Below are positions 9,319 to 41,553 of a stretch of DNA of 64,000 bases, one piece after another; positions within the stretch are counted from its first letter, which is position 1; the number at the start of each line of letters is the position of its first letter. Below the pieces are notes generated by a model that made no database searches, was not told where the DNA came from, and was given only the letters and a program-made list of their open reading frames with translations. The translations under genes were made by a program, and so were the position numbers. Source of the stretch: Terriglobia bacterium (GTDB taxonomy: Bacteria > Acidobacteriota > Terriglobia > Bryobacterales > Bryobacteraceae); contig JAIQFI010000016.1 in assembly GCA_020073345.1 (NCBI GenBank), forward strand, positions 1 through 64,000, given 5' to 3'.

Positions 9319-10455
9319 ATGGACGTCTTAGAGGCGGTGGCCGAAGGCGCTGCCATTCACCTCCGTTTCCGCCTGGACCGGCCCGGAGTCATCGGCTGGC
9401 AGCTCTACGATCCATCCACCGGCGCGTTCCTTCTGGAAGGCGAATGGTCGGAGGTGACCGGCCTCGATGCGGATCTGCGCATCCCTCTGCCGCCCCAGGA
9501 AGGCGCCTATCGCGTCCAGGTCGCGCCGGTGAAGGACCGAGCCCGGTTCATTGAGATCGCCGCGCGAGTGTGGGCAGGGAAGCTCGAGATCGGGGCGCCG
9601 CGTGTGCTGACGGCCGCGTCGGTGCGGCGTGCGCGGCTTCTGCGAGCCGTCCCCAAGGCGTTTCTTCTGCCCGTTTGCAGTGTCTGGCGCAATCGCAAGC
9701 TGATCGGGTCGATGGTCCGCCGCGACATCCTGGCCCGTTATCGGGGCAGTTTCGGCGGTACGGTGTGGACGTTCCTGAATCCGCTGCTGCTGATGGCGAC
9801 CTATTTCTTCGTGTTCGGCGTCGTGCTCCGCACGCGCTTCGGAGCCGACACCACCCGGACGGGGTTCGTGCTCTATTTTCTGTCGGGGATGCTGCCGTGG
9901 CTGGCGTTTTCCGAAGCCGTGGGCCGCTCGCCGTACGTGATCCTGGAATACCGCAGCTTCGTCAAGAAGATCGTCTTTCCCCTGGAGACGCTTCCTGTAA
10001 ACCTGGTGATTGCGGGCGCGGTCACGGAAGCTTTCGGCTTGCTGATTTTCTTGGGCGGGCTGCTAGCCGTGCGGGGGTCCGTGCCTGCCAGCGTGGTCTG
10101 GCTGCCGCTGCTGCTGATTCCCCAGATTCTGTTCACGGCGGGACTGTGCTGGATGCTGGCGGCGACCGGCGTCTATGTGCGCGATCTCGGGCAGGTTACC
10201 GGGTACCTGCTGACGCTGTGGTTTTTTCTGACGCCAATCTGTTATCCCGAATCGTCGCTGCCCCCCGGGGCTATCGGCGTGCTGCGCTTCAATCCGCTAT
10301 TTGTCTTAGTCAAGGCGTATCGCGCGGTATTTCTGGAGAATCACGCGCCGACGCTGCGGGGCGTGTTCGGGTTATGGGCCGTGTCGGTCGCGATCGCTGT
10401 TATCGGATACGCCTGGTTCCACCTGCTGCGGAAGAGTTTCGCGGATGTAATCTAG
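9319..10455 (+). CDS. ABC-2 polysaccharide export permease (Wzm-like) with extra N-terminal domain
   Basis: A 378-residue inner-membrane protein. Residues ~125-378 are an ABC-2 permease of the O-antigen/teichoic-acid exporter type: MVRRDILARYRGSFGGTVW before the first helix, then about six membrane segments, with FFLTPICYPESSLP near the end. Residues 1-90 form an additional beta-rich soluble domain (RFRLDRPGVIGWQLYDPSTG) not normally part of Wzm; it recalls the carbohydrate-binding module often found on the partner ATPase Wzt. No Wzt ATPase gene lies nearby. The 5' side is joined to the glycosyltransferases, so it probably exports their lipid-linked glycan. The start is ATG at 9319 with AAGGAG upstream. 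Confidence 0.85.
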   Translation: MDVLEAVAEGAAIHLRFRLDRPGVIGWQLYDPSTGAFLLEGEWSEVTGLDADLRIPLPPQEGAYRVQVAPVKDRARFIEIAARVWAGKLEIGAPRVLTAASVRRARLLRAVPKAFLLPVCSVWRNRKLIGSMVRRDILARYRGSFGGTVWTFLNPLLLMATYFFVFGVVLRTRFGADTTRTGFVLYFLSGMLPWLAFSEAVGRSPYVILEYRSFVKKIVFPLETLPVNLVIAGAVTEAFGLLIFLGGLLAVRGSVPASVVWLPLLLIPQILFTAGLCWMLAATGVYVRDLGQVTGYLLTLWFFLTPICYPESSLPPGAIGVLRFNPLFVLVKAYRAVFLENHAPTLRGVFGLWAVSVAIAVIGYAWFHLLRKSFADVI

Positions 10456-36388: not shown

Positions 36389-38737
36389 TTGAGGGCTTTT
36401 ATCCTTCGTAACATAAACGGACGTGTTTGTCACGGACTTTATGTGCTGGTGGCGGCTGGCCTACTTTTTTCTAGCACTAAGTTAATCGGTCAAACCTACC
36501 GCCCTACTTTACCCCCGCCCGCGGTCCCAGTCCAGCCCGGACCCGACCCGAACATGGCCGTTCGACCGCCCCGGCCCGGCGCTCCTGGCCCGGGCGAAGT
36601 AGCGAAGGCGTCGGCTGATCAGCAGGAATCCGATGGGAAGATCCTGCATCTTCGCGGAAATGCCCGAGTGGAAACGGCCGACGACCTGCTCACCGCCGAC
36701 GAGATCGATTACGACGAAACGACGCACCAGGCGGAAGCTCGCGGCCACGTTCACCTGGAAAGCTTCTCCCACGGTCAGAAGATGAATTGCGACCGCGCGG
36801 AGTACAACACCGAGACGCGCACCGGAAAGTTCTACAACGTCAGCGGGACTTCGGCCGCCCGGGTCGAGGCGCGGCGCGGCCTCCTGACCACTCAGAATCC
36901 GTTTTACTTCAGCGGCGAATGGGCCGAAAAGTCCGAGGATCGTTACATCCTGCACAACGGATTCCTGACGGACTGCCTGATTCCTGCCCCCTGGTGGCGT
37001 CTCAAAGGGCCAACCTTCGATATCATCCCGGGCGATCGCGCGGTTTCCCGGTCTTCCTGGTTCTATGTGAAAGAAGTTCCCATCTTCTACACCCCGTACT
37101 TCTACAAATCGTTAGAGAAGCAGCCGCGCCGCAGCGGTTTTCTGCTGCCCAATATCGGCAATAGCTCCTTGCGGGGAAAGACTGTTGGTGTCGGCTACTT
37201 CTGGGCGATCAATCGCAGCTATGACCTCACCTACCGCGGTCTGCTGTATTCCCAGACCGGGTTCGGACATCAGGCCGACTTTCGGGGTGTCGTGAATGAA
37301 CGCACCAGCTTCGATGCTTCCCTGTACGGCATCACGAGCACCAGTGCGAACTCCAACGCGCCCAGCGGATTAGTGGTATCGGTCGAAGGAAAGTCCGAAT
37401 TGGGTAAGGGATGGCAGGCGCGCGGCGACCTGCGCTACCTGTCCTCCTTTCTTTTCCGGCAGCAGTTTACGCAGTCCTTCGACGAGGCCGTCTCTTCGGA
37501 GACGCATTCGGTAGGGTACGTGACCCGGCACTGGTCCGATTTCGGATTTAGCCTGGTGGCCGAGCGCAACGCGAATTTTCAAAGCACGGCTCCCAACGAT
37601 GAAATCGTTCTTCGCAAGCTGCCGGAAGTGCAATTCATTACGCGCGAGCACGCGATCAGGAAGTTGCCGGTATGGGTTTCGCTCGACAGCAGTTATGGTT
37701 TGGAGCATCGCACTCAGCCTTTATTCCAGACTCGCCAGTTCGTGCAACGCGTGAATTTCGAGCCGCGCATCATGAGCGCCGTGCACTGGAACGGATTCGA
37801 CTTGGCGCCGAGCTTCGGCATTCATGAAATCGCCTACGACTCCAACATCACGACCACTCATGTGACCGGCGAAAATGTCGAGCATTTCGCCCGGGACGTC
37901 ATGCTGGATATATCCGCGCCGCCTCTGTCGCGCATCTTTGATGCTCCCAAGTGGATGGGCCGCGGAAAAGGCGCCAAAGTCAAACACGTCATCGAGCCCC
38001 GGGTCACCTACCGCTATGTCACCGGCATCGAGGATTTCAACCAGGTGATTCGCTTCGACGATACCGACATTCTGTCCAATACGCACGAGGTCGAGTTCTC
38101 GCTGACCAATCGCCTGCTGGCGAAAGATAGCAACGGTAATGTATCCGAAGTGCTGAGCTGGCAGCTTTGGTACAAGCGCTATCTGGATCCAAGCTTCGGC
38201 GGCGCGGTGATCCCGGGTCAGGCCAACGTGCTCATGAGCGCGGTAGATCTGACAGGGATCCCGTTTGTGGACGGGTTGCGGCGCCAGTCGCCGGTGGTGA
38301 GCGTGCTGCGGTACCAGTCGAATATGAATGTGGAGTGGCGCGCCGACTACGATCCAGTCCGGAAGGGAATCATTGACAGCGGCATCAATGTTGACCGGCG
38401 GGTCAAGCAAGTGTACGTTTCGCTGGGCGACTACCTGCTGAAGAGCAATCCCGTGATCGGGGCTCCCGGCTCCAACCAGTTGCGTGGGCAGATTACCTAC
38501 GGCGGGGATAACCGGCGCGGCTGGAACTACGGGTTCAGCGCGTTTTACGATTACCGTCTGGGCGTGATGCAATTCGCGCAGAGCCAGGTTACCTACAACA
38601 CGGATTGCTGCGGCATCAGCGTACAATACCGGCGATTCTCGTTCGGTGAGCGCAACGAGAACCAGTTCCGCGTGGCCTTTGCGATCTCCAACATCGGCAG
38701 CGTGGGAACCTTGCGCAAACAGGACCGGATTTTCTAG
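36389..38737 (+). CDS. lptD: LPS-assembly protein LptD
   Basis: A ~780-residue outer-membrane protein that inserts LPS into the outer leaflet together with LptE. After a signal sequence (LYVLVAAGLLFSSTKLIGQ) and a Pro-rich stretch comes the OstA/LptA-like beta-jellyroll (HLRGNARVETADDLLTADEI; HLESFSHGQKMNCDRAEY), then a long C-terminal barrel ending GTLRKQDRIF. Start is uncertain: the frame is open from a TTG at 36389, while GTG at 36443 also gives a signal peptide and better fits the -35 at 36354. The last 69 bp (38669-38737) are repeated 1215 bp downstream at 39884-39952; see the insertion entry. lptE lies at 46359-45838. Confidence 0.9.
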   Translation: MRAFILRNINGRVCHGLYVLVAAGLLFSSTKLIGQTYRPTLPPPAVPVQPGPDPNMAVRPPRPGAPGPGEVAKASADQQESDGKILHLRGNARVETADDLLTADEIDYDETTHQAEARGHVHLESFSHGQKMNCDRAEYNTETRTGKFYNVSGTSAARVEARRGLLTTQNPFYFSGEWAEKSEDRYILHNGFLTDCLIPAPWWRLKGPTFDIIPGDRAVSRSSWFYVKEVPIFYTPYFYKSLEKQPRRSGFLLPNIGNSSLRGKTVGVGYFWAINRSYDLTYRGLLYSQTGFGHQADFRGVVNERTSFDASLYGITSTSANSNAPSGLVVSVEGKSELGKGWQARGDLRYLSSFLFRQQFTQSFDEAVSSETHSVGYVTRHWSDFGFSLVAERNANFQSTAPNDEIVLRKLPEVQFITREHAIRKLPVWVSLDSSYGLEHRTQPLFQTRQFVQRVNFEPRIMSAVHWNGFDLAPSFGIHEIAYDSNITTTHVTGENVEHFARDVMLDISAPPLSRIFDAPKWMGRGKGAKVKHVIEPRVTYRYVTGIEDFNQVIRFDDTDILSNTHEVEFSLTNRLLAKDSNGNVSEVLSWQLWYKRYLDPSFGGAVIPGQANVLMSAVDLTGIPFVDGLRRQSPVVSVLRYQSNMNVEWRADYDPVRKGIIDSGINVDRRVKQVYVSLGDYLLKSNPVIGAPGSNQLRGQITYGGDNRRGWNYGFSAFYDYRLGVMQFAQSQVTYNTDCCGISVQYRRFSFGERNENQFRVAFAISNIGSVGTLRKQDRIF
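38669..38737 (+). repeat. direct repeat copy 1 (lptD 3' end)
   Basis: 69 bp comprising the last 22 codons and stop of lptD (RVAFAISNIGSVGTLRK...). It matches 39884-39952 in 68 of 69 positions; the only difference is T at 38731 against C at 39946. The match begins and ends sharply, and the downstream copy keeps the same reading frame and stop codon. Confidence 0.95.
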
Positions 38738-38779
38738 TTGTGAAAACAGATCGAGATGCCGCTCCGCGCCTAACTGCGG

Positions 38780-39694
38780 TTACCTCTTCGGGATAATGTT
38801 CGCTCTGATGCTATCCGCGAGCTTGCTTCGCAGGTCGTCTGCGTCTTTCCAGACGACATGCCCCAGGTGACGCGTGTCAAACGTAAGATGCTTCACGTAG
38901 TCTTCCCGACAACATGAGATCACTTCTAACCCGAGGCCGCTTGCGAAACCCGCCTCGTAGTAGACACTCTGTCGGTTACCCGTGAAATCTGCTACTACAA
39001 AACGGGATTGACGAATTCCCGAAAAGATCCTATCTACAACGGCTTTGTTTGTCGGATCTTCCTTCACCCGATACGGTTTGAAATTGCAGTCATCTCGGAT
39101 CGCGCTTTCAAAGCCCCGAACAAAAACGCTGTCGAGGCTGTCGTCAAACCACATGGCTACAAAGCAGAGCTTGGGATCACCGTCGGAATTGAGTGTAGGT
39201 TCGATCGCTTGCCAGCCCTTTATGGAGGGCTCGTAGATTCCCTGAGGGTGTAGTTTCTTAAGTAATCCTTCGTCTTCCAGATGTTCTATGTACCTTTGAA
39301 GCTCGTCTTTACTTCGGCAATCAGCCAGGGGATAAATGTCATCTGCGATGACTCGAACACCTTTGCCCGGCAATTCCACCTGCTTGGCGATACAGCTTAA
39401 GACTCGCTCAGCTCGTTGAGCGATACTCAGATTCTGATGCGGGGCTGCCATTTCCTCAAGATTGTCTGTGTCAAACAGGAGTGGTGAACCAGCGTCCGAT
39501 GCTTGACTTGCAGCTGCTGACAAATAAGGCTTGAGCGCCTTCGGAATCACTCGGTTCAACGCGAGGTTGCGGCTGAGACGGTAGCTTCCGCAACGCCTAC
39601 AACGCAAAGAAATCTGGCCATGGTCTGCCGCCAAAGACGATTCCACTTCGGGGTTATCCGCCTCACATAATGGGCAAAAAGCTTCAACACTCAT
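38780..39694 (-). CDS. zinc-ribbon / TIR-like (nucleoside deoxyribosyltransferase-like) putative effector
   Basis: A 304-residue cytoplasmic protein. Residues 7-35 form a zinc ribbon (C7-x2-C10 and C32-x2-C35). Residues ~90-165 are helical and may be a winged helix (RAERVLSCIAKQ; LQRYIEHLEDEGLLKKL). Residues ~175-304 form an NDT/TIR-like Rossmann domain: CFVAMWFDDSL, FVVADFTGNRQSVYYEAGFA (D236, E247 at the catalytic Glu position) and HLTFDTRHLGHVVW. Proteins with this fold split nucleotides or NAD in defence systems; here that is inference. ATG at 39694 is preceded by GGAGAAGG. It is the only gene in a low-GC insert. Confidence 0.7.
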   Translation of the reverse strand: MSVEAFCPLCEADNPEVESSLAADHGQISLRCRRCGSYRLSRNLALNRVIPKALKPYLSAAASQASDAGSPLLFDTDNLEEMAAPHQNLSIAQRAERVLSCIAKQVELPGKGVRVIADDIYPLADCRSKDELQRYIEHLEDEGLLKKLHPQGIYEPSIKGWQAIEPTLNSDGDPKLCFVAMWFDDSLDSVFVRGFESAIRDDCNFKPYRVKEDPTNKAVVDRIFSGIRQSRFVVADFTGNRQSVYYEAGFASGLGLEVISCCREDYVKHLTFDTRHLGHVVWKDADDLRSKLADSIRANIIPKR

Positions 39695-39883
39695 TTCACC
39701 TTCTCCAACGGTGACATTAACTTAGCGTCTGCCTTCGCGCCCCCTACCGTCGCCGAACGCACTTTGATCGATGCGGCGCCGTTCATGGCGTCATCGTATC
39801 ATCTGACGGTAACCAGGAAAGAAGCCGATGCCACGTCGCAATCGTTGCTGCTCCGCGATGCGCCGTCAAGCCCGTCAATGGAT

Positions 39884-39952
39884 CGCGTGGCCTTTGCGAT
39901 CTCCAACATCGGCAGCGTGGGAACCTTGCGCAAACAGGACCGGATCTTCTAG
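39884..39952 (+). repeat. direct repeat copy 2 (displaced lptD 3' end)
   Basis: 69 bp, 68/69 identical to 38669-38737, ending in the same TAG stop. It encodes a remnant ...RVAFAISNIGSVGTLRKQ... with no plausible start of its own and unrelated sequence before it. fmdB-like gene stop (39959) lies 6 bp beyond, so this is probably where lptD originally ended. Confidence 0.9.
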
Positions 39953-39958
39953 GATGGC

Positions 39959-40312
39959 CTAGTCGTTCTTGGTCGTGGTGCTGGCCGGCTTGGATTCGGT
40001 TTTGGTTTCAGACGGCTTGGATTCCGTCGATTTGGATTCGCCCGATTCAGACCCCTTGGAGTCCGTTGACTTGGAATCAGCCTTGGTCTTAGACGAGTCC
40101 CCTTCCGAATCCTTCTTCGGAGAAGAGGATCCGCCCTTAGCGTAGTCGGTTGCATACCAACCGCTGCCTTTGAGGCTGAACCCGGACAGAGATATCAGCC
40201 GCTCCACCGTTCCCCCGCAGCCCTCGTGCACGGTCAGCGGGGCGTCGGCAAACTTCTGAATCACTTCAAACTTGTTGCCACACTTCGAGCATAGGTATTC
40301 GTACAGCGGCAT
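39959..40312 (-). CDS. FmdB-family zinc-ribbon protein with Ser/Lys-rich tail
   Basis: A 117-residue protein. The first ~45 residues are an FmdB zinc ribbon (MPLYEYLCSKCGNKFEVIQK, then EGCGGTVERLIS), and SGFSLKGSGWYATDYAK is the usual continuation. The C-terminal 55 residues are a low-complexity run of S, K, E, T and D (SKSTDSKGSES-type), as in many acidobacterial and proteobacterial FmdB homologues. Function is unresolved (annotated as regulatory). It overlaps nothing and starts 14 bp after the S41 gene stop, so both are likely on one transcript. Confidence 0.88.
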   Translation of the reverse strand: MPLYEYLCSKCGNKFEVIQKFADAPLTVHEGCGGTVERLISLSGFSLKGSGWYATDYAKGGSSSPKKDSEGDSSKTKADSKSTDSKGSESGESKSTESKPSETKTESKPASTTTKND

Positions 40313-40326
40313 AAACTTGCGGCGCC

Positions 40327-41553
40327 TTAGGGAACGATCGTTTTCAGCGTATCGTAGCCGTGCTTCAGGATCTCATCCTCCGCCGGCTTGGTTGGCGCAA
40401 CCGGCGCAACATTGCCCGGATTAGCAGGGTCGTCATCGTTCTCCACGACGGCTGTGCTCTCGGCTTGCAGCACGTTGGGGGTTACGTGTACGTCCTGGAT
40501 CGCCTTCCCGCTGGGAGTGTAAAATTTGGCTACCGAAAGAATCACAGCACCACCGTCATCCATGGTGATGGCTTTGCGGATCGCGGCGTCTCCGTAGGTC
40601 GGCTCGCCAACCAGCTGAGCGCGCTTGGAATCAAGCAGGGCACCCGCGGCTACTTCCGCGGCTCCCGCCGTGCCGCGATTCACCAGCACCACCAGCGGCA
40701 GCTTGGTGATGGCCTTGGAGGCCGCAGCCGCGTGATCCTGGCGCGGGGATTTTTGCCCCTGCGAGTACGTGATCAGACCTCTATCCATGAACAAATTCGC
40801 CAGCGTAATGCCTTCGTCCACCGGCCCGAGCGCGCAATAGCGGAGGTCGAGCATCAGACGTTTGGCGCCTTGCTTTTCCAAATCCGTAACTTTCTGGGCG
40901 ATGTCCTTCGCGCGGCCCGCCTGCAACGTCGAAGCCGTGATCAGACCGATGGGATCCGGGCCTTGATCGGTGACCAGCTTCCCGCTCACCTGCGGATATA
41001 CCAGCGGGGCCCGCACCAGCTTCATCTTTTGCGGATCCGCCTGGCGTGGCGTAAGCACACTCATCTCGATCGAAGAACCCGTCTCGCCTTGCAGCAGGAT
41101 CTCGGCGAAAGCCAGAGGCATATCGCGCGTCGCGATATTGTTGATGGATTCGATGACGTCGCCGGTCGAAAGGCCCGCTTTCGCGGCGGCCGAACCCGGG
41201 AGAGCGTCCACAACCGTCAAATATCCCAGGCGTCGCGCCAGGGTCAATCCGACGTCTGCTTTGCCGGTGCCTTTTTCTTTCTGGTACTGCTTGTATTGAT
41301 CCGCATTGAGATAGCTGGCGAAGGGGTCGAGCGCCTCCAGCATCCCGTTGATGGCCCCGACGGTGACGGCCTTCATGTCGGGTTCCTCGACGTAGTCCTG
41401 TTTGATGTGCGACAAAACGTCGGTGTAAACCCCTAGCTGCGTGTAGGGCTGGTCTCCGGCGGGAGCGCCCCGGCCTCGCACGGCCCCGAACAACAACAGC
41501 ACTACCAGGCACGTGGAGGATGCGACCACAGCGAACTTAAATCGACCGTTCAT
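40327..41553 (-). CDS. S41 (CtpA-like) protease homologue lacking the catalytic Ser-Lys pair
   Basis: A 408-residue protein with an N-terminal membrane anchor (FAVVASSTCLVVLLLFGAV), a PDZ domain (~100-175; LPGSAAAKAGLSTGDVIESI) and an S41 peptidase core. The nucleophile block normally reading G-T/S-A-S-A-S-E is VNRGTAGAAEVAAGAL, so Ser is replaced by Gly (G297). Twenty-five residues on, where CtpA has the general-base Lys in GKG, it reads TYGDAAI (D322). Both catalytic residues are therefore missing although the surrounding fold is well kept. It may act as a non-catalytic PDZ scaffold or adaptor. Located between fmdB-like and CHRD genes on the same strand. Confidence 0.88.
   Translation of the reverse strand: MNGRFKFAVVASSTCLVVLLLFGAVRGRGAPAGDQPYTQLGVYTDVLSHIKQDYVEEPDMKAVTVGAINGMLEALDPFASYLNADQYKQYQKEKGTGKADVGLTLARRLGYLTVVDALPGSAAAKAGLSTGDVIESINNIATRDMPLAFAEILLQGETGSSIEMSVLTPRQADPQKMKLVRAPLVYPQVSGKLVTDQGPDPIGLITASTLQAGRAKDIAQKVTDLEKQGAKRLMLDLRYCALGPVDEGITLANLFMDRGLITYSQGQKSPRQDHAAAASKAITKLPLVVLVNRGTAGAAEVAAGALLDSKRAQLVGEPTYGDAAIRKAITMDDGGAVILSVAKFYTPSGKAIQDVHVTPNVLQAESTAVVENDDDPANPGNVAPVAPTKPAEDEILKHGYDTLKTIVP

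Follow-up and report, generated by a model that had tools for sequence, protein, structure and literature searches.

How does a single gene come to stand between two copies of its neighbour's 3' end when the DNA around it encodes no enzyme for its own movement? The question is raised by a locus in the first 64,000 bp (the window) of contig JAIQFI010000016.1 of a Terriglobia bacterium (GenBank assembly GCA_020073345.1; genome G000 below), in which the end of lptD, encoding the lipopolysaccharide (LPS) assembly outer-membrane protein, recurs beyond a gene read from the opposite strand, called the cargo gene here. To our knowledge, the way in which solitary defence genes reach a genome when no integrase or transposase comes with them is largely open. 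The locus is probably the product of a recent insertion of a single foreign gene (1146 bp with the gene's own flanks) at the convergent junction of lptD and an fmdB-like gene, in which 69 bp of the target were duplicated, one copy being left on each side. The features concerned are:

38669..38737, plus strand: repeat copy 1, the final 22 codons and stop of lptD (sequence comparison)
38738..39883: inserted DNA, 1146 bp, 52.4% GC (guanine plus cytosine), missing from the corresponding junction in relatives G018 and G019
38780..39694, minus strand: cargo gene, 304 amino acids (aa), with an N-terminal CxxC zinc ribbon, a helical middle and a C-terminal NDT/DNPH1-like domain
39884..39952, plus strand: repeat copy 2, an orphan lptD 3' end (sequence comparison)
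36389..38737, plus strand: lptD, complete, the insertion target (Pfam LptD_2 1.8e-12, LptD 7.3e-11)
39949..39962: CTAGG-ATGG-CCTAG hairpin, containing 10 bases that the empty G018 junction lacks
39959..40312, minus strand: fmdB-like zinc-ribbon gene, right-hand neighbour, convergent with lptD (Pfam Zn_ribbon_8 4.2e-15)
40327..41553, minus strand: S41-family (CtpA-like) peptidase, a synteny marker (Pfam Peptidase_S41 2.8e-33)

The duplicated lptD end and its insert

The two copies of the direct repeat (38669-38737 and 39884-39952) are identical at 68 of 69 positions and spaced 1215 bp apart, exactly as an earlier note on this DNA had given them; the sole mismatch is a T in copy 1 and a C in copy 2. 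A 69-bp match at 98.6% identity is no chance match, and it was the only direct repeat in the window to pass a screen for pairs of at least 30 bp and at least 85% identity lying 300-7000 bp apart. In front of the insert, lptD keeps its full C-terminus, as the note had held. The single opposite-strand gene that it placed between the copies (38780-39694) is also the only credible one there, the remaining open reading frames (ORFs) of at least 60 aa being antisense to it or crossing copy 2. No integrase or transposase gene was found in the insert by ORF listing or Pfam, in agreement with the note's integrase-less insert; its ends carry no inverted repeats of at least 12 bp, and the promoter scan gave no sigma-70 promoter. 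The insert is indeed lower in GC, but the contrast is smaller than the 51 versus 62% first reported: 52.4% for the insert and 51.1% for the cargo gene, against 58.4% for lptD and 60.7% for the window. That copy 2 might be a piece of another functional gene was considered and rejected, as it lies within no credible gene and a 62-aa TTG ORF (39764-39952) merely passes through it. Copy 2 is followed by GATGGC and then by CTAG, the fmdB stop, so that CTAG is repeated and a small hairpin results. No terminator is claimed there, because chance alone would give 1.4 such sites in the terminator scan; the hairpin and its extra bases may have preceded or followed the insertion.

The state of the junction before insertion was sought in relatives. 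A search of 61 genomes (G000 included) gave lptD in 60, and the downstream side was retrieved in 20 of the 59 relatives with a match, 18 of them of the same genus and several of the stretches short. The fmdB gene is present on nine of these stretches, giving ten lptD-fmdB junctions together with the window; on the other 11 the stretch ends or other genes follow. G006, in which lptD and the peptidase gene lie near each other on one contig, is outside the ten. Two junctions are empty, the stops of lptD and fmdB overlapping by 4 bp (CTAG in G018, CTAA in G019), and four are nearly so, with gaps of 2 bp (G016), 16 bp (G003 and G021) and 38 bp (G005). The remaining four are occupied, by 1221 bp in G000, 3161 bp in G020, 1658 bp in G011 and 821 bp in G022. 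Since empty junctions exist in relatives, the insert of the window is a real insertion, and the earlier claim of a one-gene insertion at the lptD 3' end is borne out. The right-hand side of the contig is colinear with G018, G019 and G020. The note had further expected empty sites in which the copy 2 sequence runs directly into fmdB; lptD and fmdB do abut in G018 and G019, but in the window copy 2 is not joined directly to fmdB. It is plausible that copy 2 is the ancestral end, separated from a G018-type fmdB junction by the extra bases.

Copy 1 matches the lptD ends of G018, G019 and G020 at 59, 55 and 57 of 69 positions (10, 14 and 12 differing), and copy 2 matches them at 58, 56 and 58. Because the copies differ from each other at 1 of 69 positions and from these relatives at 10-14, the insertion is recent on the scale of these species, and the nearly equal closeness of both copies to the relatives is as expected if both derive from the recipient. 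Over the last 900 bp of lptD, identity to the same three genomes, taken in 69-bp steps, ranges from 0.72 to 0.93, with no imported patch.

The other occupants of the junction are unlike the cargo gene. The G020 insert consists of one gene of 901 aa whose product combines an Mrr nuclease domain with an nSTAND1 ATPase domain, an architecture that we read as defence-like (its PADLOC matches are weak, the best at 0.0016); that of G022 holds a DUF1572/DinB-like gene and that of G011 encodes a 471-aa protein with no Pfam match. The junction thus accepts different single genes, two of the four defence-like by our reading, and relatives show empty sites and other cargo rather than the same gene with both repeats throughout. 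The ends of the G020 insert repeat only TTCTAG (6 bp), with no long duplication. The final 69 bp of lptD were not found again downstream in any of the 20 stretches, although short inverted matches of 19 and 21 bp, both to lptD sequence lying further upstream, do occur there; the copy is likewise absent from the inserts of G020, G011 and G022, the only three other occupied junctions available, and a degenerate 38-base pattern of the lptD end has no exact match in viral contigs. tblastn detected no cargo relative at the lptD junction in the 20 downstream stretches. The earlier note had taken the repeat for an attachment site and suggested looking for it around other cargo. Support for an attachment site is weak: no re-use of the 69 bp was found, the G020 insert has only its 6-bp repeat, and the sequences duplicated elsewhere in G000 are unrelated. 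The case cautions against taking any duplicated gene 3' end for an integrase attachment site.

The same scar in G000 and probably around cargo relatives

Scanning 1,199,979 of the 6,230,231 bases of G000 for direct repeats of at least 28 bp and at least 80% identity, 200-12000 bp apart, yielded 19 pairs, three of which are clear one-gene insertions: lptD (on C50), C11 and C19 (159104). Both further cases have a single-copy empty site in a same-genus species. 1) At C11, a single methyltransferase gene stands between two copies of an 80-bp target that takes in the last part of a glycosyltransferase gene and the beginning of a WecG-like gene (all three named by sequence reading); the insert has a GC of 0.53 and its flanks 0.66 and 0.62, and the site in G018 has one 80-bp copy and no methyltransferase. 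The equivalent place in G020 has a different methyltransferase-like gene. 2) At C19, a 769-aa gene is flanked on both sides by the same 38 bp, which form the 3' end of a 198-aa gene; in G019 the 38 bp occur once and the 769-aa gene, which G020 possesses, is missing. With three one-gene insertions in one genome and readable empty sites in its relatives, the way in which the DNA was joined could be deduced from the junctions. As a separate observation, the C11-type junction (L122 1202-2058, L225 2462-3217) is occupied by a different single methyltransferase in each of two species of the genus, while a third species has none there.

Two more of the 19 pairs lie at the 3' parts of RNA genes. The 3' part of tmRNA (ssrA; 63 bp) is duplicated past a ParDE-like toxin-antitoxin pair and a CHRD/PEP-CTERM gene (L100 8214-10192; C50 ~92214-94192). 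This case was rejected as an established one: it is composite, since parDE already adjoins ssrA in G019, compared with which G000 has only the CHRD gene in addition, and the repeat of the ssrA end there amounts to ~14 bp. A 41-bp copy of the 3' part of tRNA-Thr(tgt) lies beyond a single XRE-type helix-turn-helix gene (L173 6009-6687; C19). The following pairs were set aside: on C19, a 44-bp repeat after an RRM gene (126878/128972; short matches elsewhere) and a 92-bp repeat (129049/130167; several copies in C108 of G018), both ambiguous and neither an established case; two pairs on C2 and one on C15, placed within one ORF by script; C8 110062 and C12 22163, taken from the ORF listing as coding repeats or paralogs; and C7 8257, taken as a contig-end repeat. 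The classification covers 13 of the pairs, the other six being C50 89434, two on C5, and C10, C6 and C7 2728. On C19, a ~43-bp sequence at ~129774-129816 (L163 ~9774-9816) has more than 30 near-copies listed over genome G004 and may represent a small family of dispersed repeats. As a control, 180 kb of G030 and 180 kb of G040 (360 kb in all) were scanned and yielded 6 repeat pairs, judged to be dispersed or coding repeats, mostly without close study.

The flanks of cargo relatives were inspected at 30 loci besides the window. With repeats listed at E up to 0.05, some direct repeat was present at nine (L034, L037, L039, L040, L043, L048, L050, L087 and L090), and it was tight on both sides of the gene only in L039, L048 and L090; the L034 repeat was set aside as multi-copy, and the other non-tight ones are short or distant. 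In L090 the repeat is 53 bp at 83%, and in translation each copy looks like the C-terminal end of a protein, its stop falling on the edge of the repeat or close to it, one resembling what we take to be the end of an MsrB protein. In L048, from an uncultured archaeon, it is 54 bp at 74%: one copy forms the C-terminus of the next ORF (VADDGSVSEE, then stop) and the other is a decayed orphan (VSDDSSVSEE, then stop) on the far side of the gene. The L039 repeat, 45 bp at 82%, reads as intergenic. When fixed 250-bp flanks were compared, a score of at least 40, preset in the script, was reached by 2 of 28 cargo relatives (L090 and L039) and 4 of 1110 other genes (Fisher p 0.008). L048 scored 38, and with the cut-off at 38, picked after the scores were known, the counts become 3/28 and 5/1110 (p 0.0007). 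L036 and L045 were left out of this comparison, which is blind to repeats that overlap the gene and so missed the C11 case. The scar probably recurs in the cargo family. Two further repeats were observed: a ~65-bp imperfect direct repeat flanking one 849-bp ORF in G001 (L064 6986-8004), a candidate one-gene insertion, and three copies of a ~110-bp sequence beside a cargo-gene relative in G410 (L093 5675-6891).

Possible routes of insertion

A recent insertion with duplication of its target could have arisen if breaks in the two strands of the junction lay about 69 nt from each other and their overhangs were filled in during joining of the incoming fragment, for which Ku-dependent end joining is a possible means; one-sided recombination would be another form of the joining step. 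G000 encodes Ku (E 6.2e-47), so that such joining would be possible. That the scar recurs at unrelated sites with unrelated sequences speaks for a process independent of the site. As both neighbours stay whole when a gene end is duplicated, gene ends are expected to be over-represented among surviving insertions, and no target-specific enzyme is then required. Before insertion, the allele would be expected to have a single 69-bp copy that leads into GATGGCCTAG or abuts fmdB. More generally, and as a proposal that we consider less likely than not, insertion with long target duplication might be a general way, needing no recombinase, for single genes and prominently immune genes to enter the chromosomes of bacteria and archaea at gene ends via staggered-break fill-in, the duplicated end protecting the neighbour; the cargo family would so travel in more than one phylum.

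Several observations weigh against this explanation or its extension. The G020 insert stands at the same junction without a long duplication, so not all single genes arrive in this manner. Compared with G018, 10 bases are extra in front of fmdB, which calls for either a further small event or another ancestor, and no same-species genome was found in which the exact pre-insertion sequence could be read. Ku is circumstantial, being found in five of the six genomes searched (G000, G018, G019, G020 and G030, not G040). At C11, of the 6 sites at which the 80-bp copies differ, one copy agrees with G018 at 4 and the other at 0, with 2 matching neither, an asymmetry that relaxed constraint on the less similar copy, or a foreign copy, would explain. 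The L090 copies belong to no intact gene, and that genome has no further full copy; the enrichment among cargo relatives rests on two or three loci and is suggestive only. In the control, a 73-bp pair of G030 (82%) tightly surrounds one response-regulator-like ORF (102576-104048, L175-L182 region), with similar sequence recurring near stretch positions 157638 and 161837, and the control sample is too small to call G000 unusual.

Homology-facilitated illegitimate recombination, on which published literature exists, would yield exactly this layout with a duplication of arbitrary length. Linear donor DNA of the same species that already had the gene beside lptD would recombine homologously inside lptD, and its other side would be joined illegitimately at a point 69 bp upstream of the recipient's lptD stop, copy 1 being the donor's and copy 2, still beside fmdB, the recipient's. 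We consider it rather unlikely: it merely shifts the first insertion into the donor, and no imported lptD patch is seen against three same-genus species, though a same-species donor would leave none. Replacement of a gene's 3' end is the usual outcome of integrase-borne elements, and the partly duplicated 3' ends of ssrA and tRNA-Thr around small inserts in G000 would suit site-specific integration, in which a tyrosine recombinase acting in trans or since lost inserted a small element that replaced the lptD 3' end with an identical copy. This is the less probable for several reasons and seems to us unlikely: the insert holds no integrase (integrases elsewhere in the genome were not searched for), the 69 bp were not found at the junction in G020, G011 or G022, nor an exact match of the degenerate pattern in viral contigs, other G000 sites have unrelated sequences duplicated, and the 80-bp duplication runs from the end of one gene into its neighbour's start. 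A Helicobacter case, described in the extract of PMC4978471 as a possible site-specific insertion with long target duplication, speaks for such integration and against the site-independent joining that we favour.

It is very improbable that the locus was built stepwise, by insertion of the gene at the shared CTAG stop with a 4-bp duplication, in an IS5-like manner, and separate origin of the 69-bp copy. CTAG does stand on both sides of the whole insert in G000 and in G020, and IS5 makes 4-bp target duplications according to the extract of PMC3031569; yet the insert has neither terminal inverted repeats of at least 12 bp nor a transposase gene, CTAG encodes both stops and could be retained on both sides by selection alone, and two separate events are needed. 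An assembly artefact, the misjoining at lptD of reads from two strains, might be suspected in a 98-contig draft. It is scarcely credible here, since one base distinguishes the copies, each adjoins sequence of its own within the insert, and colinearity with G018, G019 and G020 is kept on the right.

Integrative elements at the 3' ends of tRNA genes, ssrA and icd share with the locus a target 3' end on both sides and a gene left whole; the locus differs in its lack of an integrase, in that no re-use of the same core was seen, and in its one-gene size. A nearer likeness is insertion with long target duplication, reportedly described by Nobusato et al. 2000 (Gene 259:99) and Furuta et al. 2010 (NAR 38:2428), as citing papers have it. 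Our literature search listed no paper that we judged to concern such a locus. In extracts of five papers (PMC1643837, PMC3031569, PMC4978471, PMC2749054 and PMC3154945) this type of insertion is attributed to Nobusato et al. and often tied to restriction-modification (RM) genes of Helicobacter pylori, and RM systems are said to insert with 'long and variable target duplications' (PMC3031569). To the extent of these extracts, the locus shares the small gene unit, the long target repeat and the empty single-copy target in a relative, and differs in having one NDT/TIR-like gene instead of an RM system, in not being from H. pylori, and in the 10 extra bases at its right end. As the anatomy is shared and the cargo class is not, the locus is a variant. 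PMC3784515 was not used, the duplications in its extract being far larger.

The cargo gene

The C-terminal domain of the cargo protein has the NDT/TIR fold. PADLOC gave a TIR effector match (5.9e-8) at residues 214-290, and the Foldseek rows include SPARTA TIR domains at E 8.8e-3 and weaker, likenesses that the protein shares with TIR-like NADase defence proteins. The Pfam family Nuc_deoxyrib_tr stays below its cut-off (15 versus 28.8 bits), NCBIfam gave nothing over cut-off, and no solved structure was found by sequence. Within the NDT/DNPH1/MilB fold the protein stands apart by its sequence identity of ~15% and its fused N-terminal zinc ribbon, and its activity is putative. Glu247, invariant in 18 aligned proteins, may be equivalent to the catalytic Glu; the motif CFVAMWFD was among the patterns used to find relatives, so its alignment columns may look over-invariant. 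To judge by its fold and limited family similarity, the cargo protein would most likely be a single-gene immune effector, possibly directed against phages, whose NDT/TIR-like domain cleaves a nucleotide or NAD+. No RM family match was obtained with Pfam or PADLOC. The protein also differs from the DUF4062 'Swarozyc' system, as far as the extract of PMC13174449 describes it, in that no DUF4062 family is among its Pfam matches at E up to 1, and its defence role is putative.

The protein search for relatives used an even draw of 396 genomes of the phylum, not the whole genus. Viral contigs gave one pattern match and no confirmed cargo gene, and phages no match at 1e-5, with five weak records at E up to 1. 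Among the matches listed, 7 of 72,556 plasmid records have partial matches to the cargo. The insert DNA itself was matched in 3 of 200 genomes of the family, namely G000 and, by partial matches to coding homologs, G607 and G023.

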